Of a DNA stretch of 64,000 bases, positions 4,661-55,586 are shown piece after piece. The DNA lies in NCBI RefSeq assembly GCF_000585995.1, contig NZ_CP007410.1, positions 372,001 to 436,000 on the forward strand, read 5' to 3'. Made by a program: the position numbers and the translations under genes. The notes under the pieces were generated by a model. The model saw only the letters and a program-made list of their open reading frames with translations. It was not told the DNA's origin and made no database searches. The stretch comes from Pseudomonas brassicacearum (GTDB lineage: Bacteria > Pseudomonadota > Gammaproteobacteria > Pseudomonadales > Pseudomonadaceae). Position 1 is the stretch's first letter; each line of letters begins with the position of its first letter.

Positions 4661-5099
4661 GCACGGCTCCGCAGATAAAGATGAGCGGCATTCTACGCCG
4701 CAAACCGATCAGCGTTCGAAGCTAATGCCTCGGGTGATGGGCTCTTTGGCGATCGTCGGCGTGATGGTCGGGCTGATGATCGGGCGCCTGACCACGCCCG
4801 AACCGAGCGAGTTGCAGCAGATCGAGGTGGCCGATGGGGCGTTGGTGGCCTGGTTCAACAACGAACCCAAGTTGCATGGGGAAGTCATCGATGGCTCAGT
4901 GGCGCTGTTGTTCGAAGCCGAAGGCCGGGCGCAGAAAGGCCAGCTCAAGCTCAACGGCAAGGATGTGAACTGGCGGGTGCGTTTGAGTGATAAGGGCTTG
5001 TTGCTGACGCTGGTGGCGGCGCGTCCGTTGCGGGGGGAGTGGACCGGCAGCGAGGTCGATGACCGCTGGCGGCTGGAGGTCCGTCTCCAGGAGCAATAA
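4659..5099 (+). CDS. Small membrane-anchored protein of unknown function
   Basis: This 146-residue protein has a polar N-terminal tail, one membrane helix (VMGSLAIVGVMVGLMIG, about residues 26-42) and a ~100-residue soluble part that should face the periplasm. No known domain was recognised. A gene of unknown function occupies this same place between trmL and ntrC in other pseudomonads. The start is uncertain: the ATG at 4659 overlaps the divergent trmL start, while an ATG at 4725 would place the helix nearer the N-terminus and give 124 residues. A strong terminator lies downstream at 5361-5393, beyond the oppositely oriented NrsZ-like RNA. Confidence 0.7.
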   Translation: MHGSADKDERHSTPQTDQRSKLMPRVMGSLAIVGVMVGLMIGRLTTPEPSELQQIEVADGALVAWFNNEPKLHGEVIDGSVALLFEAEGRAQKGQLKLNGKDVNWRVRLSDKGLLLTLVAARPLRGEWTGSEVDDRWRLEVRLQEQ

Positions 5100-5295
5100 A
5101 AGAGGGAATCCCCGGCCTGCCTGTACCAAGGTCCCCAAAACGGGAGGGCTTGCGCTGAGCGCACGGCCCTGGTGTAAAGAAGGGAAACCTTGACCTGCCT
5201 GTATCAAGGCCCCCAAAACAGTGGGCTCGATGAGCCCGGTATAAAATGGGGAATCCCCGGCCTGCCTGTACCAAGGTCCCCGAAACTGGGTAGTG
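5095..5295 (-). ncRNA. nrsZ: NrsZ-like nitrogen-regulated small RNA
   Basis: Three related units (cores about 5248-5281, 5182-5214 and 5103-5136) lie downstream of ntrC and co-oriented with it. A near-perfect sigma-54 promoter precedes them. On the minus strand each unit folds as an outer G-rich/C-rich stem, an inner 6-bp stem and the invariant loop UACAGGCAGG, followed by a U-rich run. The inner stem is CCUUGG/CCGGGG in units 1 and 3 and CCUUGA/UCAAGG in unit 2. These are compensatory changes, and the G-U pairs exist only in minus-strand RNA. Two further hairpins (GGGCTC-GAT-GAGCCC, and one around 5146-5170) separate the units. In P. aeruginosa the processed RNA NrsZ occupies the ntrC-downstream position, is NtrC/RpoN dependent and has a repeated-hairpin layout. 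The identity is inferred from position, promoter and architecture. The exact ends are estimates. Confidence 0.8.
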
Positions 5296-53416: not shown

Positions 53417-53755
53417 TCAGGGTTGTGTGTTGACGTTGTCCAGTGCCCGATTTGCCAGCAATCCACTCAGTTCGATCAGTTGCTGGATGCCAAGGGCGAC
53501 ATGGCGTCGTGAGCCTTCCAGGTCGAATGCCAGGTCGCTGACCATGGCGTCGGCTGAAGCCAGGGTTTCGCTGAGGTTGGCCAACAGGCTTTCGGTGTCG
53601 ATGCCGTCGACGATGGTGAAGAGCTGGCCCGGCTGTTTGTTCTCGGGGTTGGTCTGTTTGGGCTTCAGGTAGTAGTCGAGCGCGCGGTCGGTGGCTTCCT
53701 GGAGTTTCTTGGGGTCGGTTTCGGGTTCTGGTGGGTTGGGTGTGGCCTTGAACAT
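53417..53755 (-). CDS. Small DUF6124-type (DUF3077-like) protein
   Basis: This 112-residue acidic protein begins MFKATPNPPE, continues LQEATDRALDYYLKP, and contains a helical ESLLANLSETLASADAMVSDLAFDLEGSRRHVALGIQQLIELS. This matches a small-protein family common and often multicopy in fluorescent pseudomonads. No signal peptide or catalytic motif is present, and the function is unknown. The ATG at 53755 lies 8 nt after GGAG and gives the family's usual N-terminus; an upstream ATG (53791) lies inside the structured leader. That leader can pair with the Shine-Dalgarno region and suggests translational control. Confidence 0.8.
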   Translation of the reverse strand: MFKATPNPPEPETDPKKLQEATDRALDYYLKPKQTNPENKQPGQLFTIVDGIDTESLLANLSETLASADAMVSDLAFDLEGSRRHVALGIQQLIELSGLLANRALDNVNTQP

Positions 53756-53762
53756 GGTTGAC

Positions 53763-53927
53763 GCTCCTTGATTGATGGAGCCGCCAGACATCGCTGCTAA
53801 ACGAAAAGGGTGGCGACTGTGCGCGGGTTAGCAGACCAGGAATCAAGGAACCCGGCGCACCGAAGTGCCCCACGCACAGCCGCCATAAGCGGACCTGCGT
53901 GCCTTGATATTGTGCCGAGCTGCTAAA
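53763..53927 (-). promoter_or_regulatory. Structured 5' leader with alternative pairings over the ribosome-binding site
   Basis: In minus-strand RNA a 16-bp stem forms between 53884-53869 and 53827-53812. Its two non-Watson-Crick positions are G-U here but A/C mismatches on the other strand. Inside it lies the tetraloop hairpin GCAC-UUCG-GUGC (53868-53857). The loop segment UCCUUGAUU (53849-53841) is complementary to AAUCAAGGA at the Shine-Dalgarno (53773-53765), and CUGCUAA (53834-53828) to UUAGCAG at 53800-53794. Copies of both partner motifs also occur upstream (UUAGCAG 53926-53920; AUCAAGG 53908-53902). The Shine-Dalgarno additionally sits in a small hairpin, GCUCC-N9-GGAGC (53781-53763). 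This is the layout of a switch; the function is inferred. Confidence 0.6.
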
Positions 53928-54057
53928 CCCGATCGCTGAACTGACAGCGACCTGCAAACGTTAGAGCCCAGGGCCAAGGCGCACAAGCCGGCGGATTCTG
54001 GCGTAGTTGTAGGCAATGGCGCAAGGTTGTGTAGCCCTGTGCTGAAGGGCAGATTTC
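53928..54057. other. Intergenic, no feature recognised
   Basis: This stretch lies between the structured leader and the left inverted arm of the repeat island. It should contain the promoter of the DUF6124-type gene, but no convincing -35/-10 or sigma-54 site was found. Confidence 0.4.
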
Positions 54058-54380
54058 GTGTGTATATCCGTTATTTAGGTAACGGCTACTTATGGTTCCG
54101 CTCTTACAGCGGCTCACTTTTGAGAAGCGCAAAAGTAAGCAAAACGCTTTAGCCCCACCACTCGGCACCTCGCCTAGGCTCGGTGTGCCCTCACTCCGGC
54201 ATTGCTCCGTGGGCCCGCTGCGAAGGGCCATCCATGGCCCAGCGCAGCTATCCCGGCATCCATGCCGGGATGCCCACTCCACAATGCCTGCGTTCGGCCA
54301 GCGTGGTTAACGGGGCGCCGAGATCAACGTCCACCGCGAGGCGGCCTAGTAGCCGACCTGGTTCTTGGTGGGACCGCGTT
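54058..54380. repeat. Left inverted arm of repeat island
   Basis: About 320 bp match the right arm (55264-55586) in inverse orientation at roughly 90% by eye. The arm contains two nested perfect palindromes, GGGCCAT-CC-ATGGCCC (54225-54240) and TCCCGGCAT-CC-ATGCCGGGA (54251-54270). No credible coding sequence is present. Confidence 0.9.
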
Positions 54381-54386
54381 TCCCCT

Positions 54387-55062
54387 GTGGGAGCGGGCTT
54401 GCCCGCGAAGGCGGCCTGATAGCCGGCCTGTCCCTTGCGGGTGTACCCCAATCCAACGGTGGGAGCGGGCTTGCCCGCGAAGGCGGCCTAGTAGCCGGCC
54501 TGTCTCTTGCGGGTGTACCCCAATCCAACTGTGGGAGCGGGCTTGCCCGCGAAGGCGGCCTAGTAGCCGGCCTGTCTCTTGCGGGTGTACCCCGATCCAA
54601 CGGTGGGAGCGGGCTTGCCCGCGAAGGCGGCCTAGTAGCCGACCTGTCTCTTGCGGGTGTACCCCGATCCAACGGTGGGAGCGGGCTTGCCCGCGAAGGC
54701 GGCCTAGTGTCCGGCCTGTCTCTTGCGGGGGGTACCCCAATCCAACTGTGGGAGCGGGCTTGCCCACGAAGGCGGCCTAGTAGCCGACCTGTCTCTTGCG
54801 GGTGTACCCCGATCCAACTGTGGGAGCGGGCTTGCCCGCGAAGGCGGCCTAGTAGCCGGCCTGTCTCTTGCGGGTGTACCCCAATCCAACTGTGGGAGCG
54901 GGCTTGCCCACGAAGGCGGCCTAGTAGCCGACCTGTCTCTTGCGGGTGTACCCCGATCCAACTGTGGGAGCGGGCTTGCCCGCGAAGGCGGCCTAGTGTC
55001 CGGCCTGTCTCTTGCGGGTGTACCCGATCCCACTGTGGGAGCGGGCTTGCCCGCGAAGGCGG
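54387..55062. repeat. Tandem array of ten 72-bp units each carrying a type A REP
   Basis: Units begin with GTGGGAGCGGGCTTGCCC at 54387, 54459, 54531, 54603, 54675, 54748, 54820, 54892, 54964 and 55035. The period is 72 bp, with one 73 and one 71. The remainder of each unit (GGCGGCCTAGTAGCCGGCCTG, then CTTGCGGGTGTACCCC) resembles the inner end of the left arm at 54341-54375. The units at 54748 and 54892 look identical, indicating 144-bp duplication. Frames on both strands stay open only because 72 is a multiple of three. Confidence 0.93.
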
Positions 55063-55263: not shown

Positions 55264-55586
55264 ATGCGGTCCCCATCAAGAACCAGGTCGGCTACTAGGC
55301 CGCCTTGCGGTGGACTTTGATCTCGGGCGCCCCGTTAACCACGATGGCCGAACGCAGGCATTGCGCAGTGGGCATCCCGGCATGGATGCCGGGATAGCCG
55401 CGCTGGGCCATGGATGGCCCTTCGCGGCGGCCCACGGAGCAATGCCGGAGTGAGGACATGCCGAGCCTAGGCGAGGCACCGAGTGGTGGGGCAAAAGCGC
55501 TTTGGTTACTTTCGCGCTTTTCGAAAGTGAGCCGCTGTAAGAGCGGAACCGTCAGCAGCCGTTACCTAAATAACGGATATACACAC
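55264..55586. repeat. Right inverted arm of repeat island
   Basis: This is the inverse of 54058-54380, with the same two nested palindromes (55375-55394 and 55405-55420). Its outer end stops 9 bp from the end of the first chemoreceptor gene. Confidence 0.9.

Follow-up and report, generated by a model that had tools for sequence, protein, structure and literature searches.

C4, an immunity RNA of phages that acts as a brake on translation, was discovered in phage P1. There RNase P excises it from a longer transcript, and it works on its own as an antisense RNA that covers ribosome-binding sites; a difference of 4 nt between P1 and P7 already separates the specificities of their C4 RNAs, according to the accessible text of PMC5320573. 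The same text describes the Group 1 sRNAs of Acinetobacter baumannii AB5075, 21 C4-like RNAs with a varied a' loop in one genome, which appear to be cut out of longer transcripts at a GG motif (PMC5320573). A short upstream RNA that turns translation on has been shown for IsrK (RF01394) of the Salmonella prophage Gifsy-1, where the upstream RNA and the downstream leader form alternative structures (PMC4825925, in its available part), and in Burkholderia isrK and C4 make up one transcription unit, as stated in the available part of PMC4603805. Finally, the processed CI RNA of the satellite phage P4 pairs with sites upstream and downstream of itself (PMC4825925).

We analysed a stretch of 64,000 nt of the Pseudomonas brassicacearum chromosome (NZ_CP007410.1, positions 372,001 to 436,000; hereafter the window), in which a first-pass annotation had proposed a two-state RNA switch at 53763-53927, on the minus strand, in the leader of a gene for a DUF6124 protein. 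The annotation knew of no description of such an element. Its finding is real, and the kind of element is already known: in the window search, Rfam 15 identifies it as a C4 antisense RNA (RF01695; complete match at 53806-53890, minus strand; 78.5 bits against a cut-off of 45, E = 1.1e-13), preceded by the upstream target half, the c4-a1b1 RNA motif (RF03163; 53912-53964, minus strand), whose 46.8 bits lie only 0.1 bit above the cut-off of 46.7. A related logic is also described for IsrK and the P4 CI RNA in the available part of PMC4825925.

Re-reading the minus strand, on which all features of the module lie, we found every motif of the annotation in place. A 16-bp stem pairs 53884-53869 with 53827-53812, two of the 16 pairs being G-U, and holds the P2 hairpin GCAC(UUCG)GUGC (53857-53868). 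The middle strand (53849-53828) carries two loops identified by sequence reading and Rfam alignment, b' (UCCUUGAUU, 53841-53849) and a' (CUGCUAA, 53828-53834), the latter also by leader comparison. Their complements occur twice with the same motifs in the same order: upstream as a1 (UUAGCAG, 53920-53926) and b1 (AUCAAGG, 53902-53908), both confirmed by script, and downstream as a2 (TTAGCAG in the DNA, 53794-53800), supported by the leader comparison, and b2 (AATCAAGGA, 53765-53773). The b2 word overlaps the Shine-Dalgarno AAGGAG (53769-53764) ahead of the ATG at 53755, with which the proposed controlled gene begins (DUF6124, 53417-53755; PF19619, 107.1 bits, cut-off 27). The element extends further upstream than first proposed, the c4-a1b1 match running to 53964. 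The 16-bp stem is the body of the C4, and the choice of partner is made only by the loops a' and b'. A weak candidate promoter (TTGTGC-17-TAACGT, 53958-53986) was picked out by eye in a leader that is conserved in many paralogues; a scan for consensus promoters found none.

As a control, we read the annotated immI region of P1, in which a1, b1, c4, a2, b2 and icd follow one another and which scores 68.8 bits with the C4 model and 51 bits with c4-a1b1. The order a1-b1-C4-a2-b2-start is common to P1 and the window copy; b2 lies over the Shine-Dalgarno and specificity is set by the a'/b' loops, as in P1 and P7. The spacings are close: aligned to the annotated 77-nt P1 c4, the predicted mature C4 RNA measures 76 nt (53809-53884), a2 and b2 are 27 nt apart against 29 in P1, and b2 stands 18 nt from the start in both. 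In this alignment a GG stands at the corresponding position, 53884, where the predicted RNA would begin. The gap between a1 and C4 differs, at 42 nt in the window copy against 88 in P1 (80 in the counterpart in genome G010), and so do the setting, chromosomal with about 34 copies, and the target, DUF6124 or DUF3077 instead of icd-ant. Between DUF6124 and P1 Icd we detected no similarity and obtained no alignment.

The assignment to C4 rests on the score, on the long stem around two hairpins with covariation, on a' and b' each having a complement, a2 and b2, at the ribosome-binding site of the next gene, and on the upstream a1 and b1. We rejected a P1-type immI immunity operon as an identity for the locus, as the target is DUF6124, not Icd-like, and the neighbours are opgH and a chemotaxis receptor gene. 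Nor do we assign the a1b1 part to IsrK, whose model it matches weakly (26.8 bits, cut-off 50); the downstream genes in Gifsy-1 are orf45-anrP. The P4 CI RNA is likened to the element by its description, and it differs in acting on transcription termination (available part of PMC4825925). Nearly all the copies here have a matched target directly downstream, in contrast to the A. baumannii RNAs, for which the accessible text of PMC5320573 identifies no targets.

The minimum free energy fold of 53940-53740 includes the stem, the UUCG hairpin and the hairpin around the Shine-Dalgarno that the annotation had described. This energy stands out only slightly from that of shuffled sequences (z = -2.09, 9 of 200 doing equally well or better) and is too weak to serve as proof of the element, and we rejected it as such. 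Covariation in homologous leaders had been put forward as a check, its absence as a refutation, and it is present: across the 34 C4 paralogues of this genome, 96.3% of cells of the 26-pair structure are paired and 16 of the 26 pairs show double-sided changes, including all four pairs of the UUCG hairpin (helix 2). The structure scores 0.388 for covariation, and slid versions of it no more than 0.127, in a comparison that favours the unslid version because the structure was drawn from the window copy; none of 500 shuffles reached 0.388. Homology and covariation together are strong evidence for the C4 fold.

The best explanation, with a probability that we put at about 0.86, is a C4-type antisense RNA module that controls the DUF6124 gene. 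A single transcript would carry a1-b1, C4, a2-b2 over the Shine-Dalgarno and then the gene. C4 would fold on its long stem, exposing the loops a' and b', and would most likely be excised by RNase P; it would then most likely pair with a2 and b2, cover the Shine-Dalgarno and keep DUF6124 translation low. Having the same two words, a1-b1 would compete for C4 and relieve the block, in the window copy probably acting chiefly on its own transcript. The balance would probably be set by processing and by the supply of a1-b1 RNA, with no ligand, and each C4 would mainly silence its own gene through its own a'/b' words. We infer transcription and C4 processing at this locus and, by analogy with P1 C4 and IsrK, repression by C4 and its counteraction by a1-b1.

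The window copy is one of many. On the 6.65 Mb chromosome (one contig) there are 34 C4 matches, all above the cut-off, and 39 DUF6124 matches, 37 of them above it. In 27 of the 34, a DUF6124 sequence, in some cases truncated, follows the C4 within 400 nt on the same strand, and two further C4s precede DUF3077, which in one case is split across two frames. Downstream of the remaining five come either small ORFs that have no Pfam match above the cut-off, or an unrelated small ORF, or a deletion. The target leader has been lost at copies 711789, 2312090 and 6554466, and copy 208136 is truncated. Conversely, 11 DUF6124 matches have no C4; five of these are full-length genes (L072-L076), three of whose leaders still resemble c4-a1b1, one above the cut-off. 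Between a1b1 and C4, a terminator-like hairpin, through which a short a1-b1 RNA could be released, is present in 19 of the 34 copies, against a mean of 9.7 and a maximum of 12 in 15 spacer shuffles, a real but loose signal; the window copy has none there.

Two of these loci deserve mention for their rearrangements. At G000:C1:1396998-1397084 (L005), a C4 whose a1, a' and a2 are intact is followed by an unrelated 63-aa ORF with a poor b2; another gene seems to have taken the place of the target. At G000:C1:205600-209300 (L070), a truncated C4-DUF6124 module is accompanied by three near-identical DUF6124 fragments about 500 nt apart.

The recognition words differ between copies and are matched within them. 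We compared 162 distinct leaders, drawn, before removal of duplicates, from 34 modules of this genome, 30 each from genomes G010 (of 36 C4 matches) and G005 (of 42), and 74 named loci, the set being formed without L128, L130, L131 and L161. The a' word occurs in 27 versions, and a perfect 7/7 complement of it is present upstream in 150 of the 162 leaders, downstream in 150 and at both places in 146; among 300 permuted sets, at most 26 leaders had a perfect complement at both a1 and a2, a comparison uncorrected for the kinship of copies. Duplex energies were compared for 31 of the 34 modules, those with a leader. The a'/a2 plus b'/b2 duplexes average -23.9 kcal/mol for cognate and -15.9 for non-cognate pairs, and those with a1/b1 -23.1 and -16.2, none of 20000 permutations being as good in either case, again with relatedness uncorrected. 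Ranked by a2+b2 duplex energy, the cognate target comes first in 22 of the 31 rows and 17 of the 31 columns, and in a larger set, formed without four leaderless modules and the same four named loci, it is strictly the best for 37 of 60 modules.

A two-seed rule that asks for 7 or more contiguous Watson-Crick pairs in b' and 6 or more in a' is passed by 25 of the 31 cognate pairs and by three of the 930 non-cognate ones. Simple duplex energy is less sharp, as 100 of the 930 non-cognate pairs match the level reached by 90% of cognates. Most copies thus appear, from these words, to carry a private a'/b' code of imperfect privacy, and cross-silencing between modules is predicted to be rare, not absent. 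A pairing scan of this genome for control in trans of C4-less DUF6124 genes by other C4s gave no clear case; the gene L074 and C4 6556223+ have runs of 7 and 7.

Nine hand-picked modules with common flanking DNA were aligned between this genome and G010, and two of these pairs are uninformative, the copy in this genome having lost its target. The a' word of the window copy, CTGCTAA, reads CTGCGAA in the G010 counterpart, and a1 and a2 both differ to match. By eye, the a words of the pair 334731/L236 differ between species and are matched at three sites, as are the differing b words of 2802413/L260 and 5322087/L254. The pairs 1351887/L263 and 19787/L259 show joint differences in b' and b2, with b1 unchanged or just partly matched; in 6556223/L243 the words are identical. 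The middle strand and both partner sites change together between copies, in several cases between species, and in the G010 pairs the downstream partner is tracked more strictly than the upstream one.

Occupancy of the window site also varies. The module is flanked by opgH and a chemotaxis receptor gene, and opgH loci were found in 22 of the 38 genomes searched. Among the 18 loci scanned for C4, only those of this genome and of G010 have a C4 within the opgH stretch; seven other genomes have both opgH and the chemotaxis receptor gene in the stretch and no C4. The module has been gained at, or lost from, the opgH site within the genus.

The DUF6124 protein is maintained under purifying selection, because dN/dS of the window gene is 0.11-0.25 against 15 homologues; four comparisons outside the window gene gave 0.08-0.22, and that of L128 with L161, involving very few changes, gave 0.82. 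AlphaFold2 models the protein as a helical hairpin at moderate confidence (mean pLDDT 77, pTM 0.49). With this model, Foldseek returned nothing at E <= 0.001 in PDB or BFVD, and the protein matched neither the PADLOC defence models nor PHROGs. A kinship with NPr, the sole PDB sequence match (E 0.18; NCBIfam E 0.07), was discarded as a chance match because the DUF6124 model is helical. For the associated DUF3077 family, the available part of PMC9630843 describes a one-base insertion in a furfural-tolerant P. putida KT2440 by which a DUF3077 pseudogene becomes a normal protein-coding gene, a possible hint at a phenotype.

Several of these observations would also suit a chromosomal module of the type I toxin-antitoxin kind, in which the DUF6124 protein would be harmful, C4 would be its RNA antitoxin and the copies would have spread by addiction: the protein is small and follows an RNA predicted to cover its ribosome-binding site, the copies are many and their words private, and the site is occupied in some species and not in others. 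We nevertheless hold this to be unlikely. Five full-length DUF6124 genes do without a C4, the protein has no known toxin fold and no match to defence models, and C4 shares a transcript with its target, unlike classical type I antitoxins, which are not in the same transcript as theirs.

Less probable still is a purely cis-acting leader that flips between a1b1-C4 and C4-a2b2 pairing under a ligand, a protein or temperature and from which C4 is never released. Of the first-pass proposal, one strand with two competing partners, one of them at the ribosome-binding site, stands and gains from the joint change of the sites; the switch in cis fits less well, as does a ligand to set it, since the C4 model needs none and no Rfam riboswitch matches the leader. 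The two partner sites do share one transcript and vary in step with the middle strand, the missing terminator-like hairpin makes a separate short a1b1 RNA less likely in the window copy, and two alternative leader folds are described for Gifsy-1 IsrK (available part of PMC4825925). Against this, P1 C4 and the A. baumannii C4-like RNAs occur as processed RNAs (accessible text of PMC5320573), and the C4 stem shows covariation as an independent unit. Because P1 C4 RNA is released by RNase P and acts separately, an antisense RNA module would be a better label for the locus than a cis switch awaiting a ligand.

Antisense modules of this kind are widespread in the genus. Of 199 Pseudomonas genomes, the present one included, 183 have a C4 above the cut-off and 156 have DUF6124; G010 has 35 such C4s and G005 has 39. 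Among 79 loci of named Pseudomonas genomes that hold close DUF6124 relatives, 78 have a C4 upstream, which ends 44-97 nt before the protein match. A survey of 229 gammaproteobacterial genomes including this one, run with stricter filters than the Pseudomonas survey, found C4 in 12 and DUF6124 in one; among the other 228, C4 occurs in 11, with at most four matches per genome, and DUF6124 in none. The protein is matched by one of 50,697 phage records and by none of 72,556 plasmid records. The single phage record is the prophage-like DVM-2008 of P. fluorescens, at whose edge DUF6124 and a C4 lie next to prtR and a holin gene, and 27 IMG/VR contigs, predicted viral only, hold a DUF6124 relative, 26 of them with a C4 as well. 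Because these contigs and DVM-2008 hold DUF6124 with C4, some copies may ride on prophages.

That the module is a functionless relic of a P1-like prophage immunity region, as C4 being a phage immunity RNA, its presence beside DUF6124 on these viral contigs and DVM-2008, and the copies without a target might suggest, is very improbable given the chromosomal neighbours of the window copy, the near-absence of the protein from phage and plasmid records and from PHROGs, and the maintenance seen in its dN/dS and in the matched change at the partner sites.

We found no earlier description of genus-wide multiplication of C4 and DUF6124, or of private words, in the open-licence PMC literature, and one may exist elsewhere; the multiplication of C4 across a genus beside one gene family, with largely private co-evolving words, appears to be new. 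One bacterial genus seems to have adopted a phage-immunity RNA and expanded it to dozens of antisense channels on each chromosome, largely private ones. If it works as we propose, this would be an extensive natural collection of antisense RNA-target pairs that are nearly orthogonal to one another, with recognition words co-evolving at three sites, and a first handle on DUF6124 and DUF3077. More speculatively, and with more doubt than belief on our part, C4 and DUF6124/DUF3077 may form proliferating self-silencing modules whose words diversify as selection acts against cross-silencing, giving 25-30 channels per cell nearly blind to each other, either selfish and addiction-like or a repertoire serving the host, for example against phages with C4 immunity.

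Other repeats and RNAs lie near these genes. Between the module and the chemotaxis receptor gene, a 72-bp unit is repeated in tandem about 10 times in the window (54334-55062, 92% matches), the array being flanked by two matches to TwoAYGGAY RNA (RF01731) in opposite orientation (54211-54275, minus strand, and 55370-55433, plus strand). The TwoAYGGAY motif is also found near three C4-less DUF6124 matches (L072, L074 and L077). A PrrF sRNA match (166.1 bits; 1444-1591 of L076, plus strand) lies just downstream of the C4-less DUF6124 gene at 4584267, and the nitrogen-regulated small RNA NrsZ is encoded elsewhere in the window (5089-5292, minus strand; 146.7 bits).
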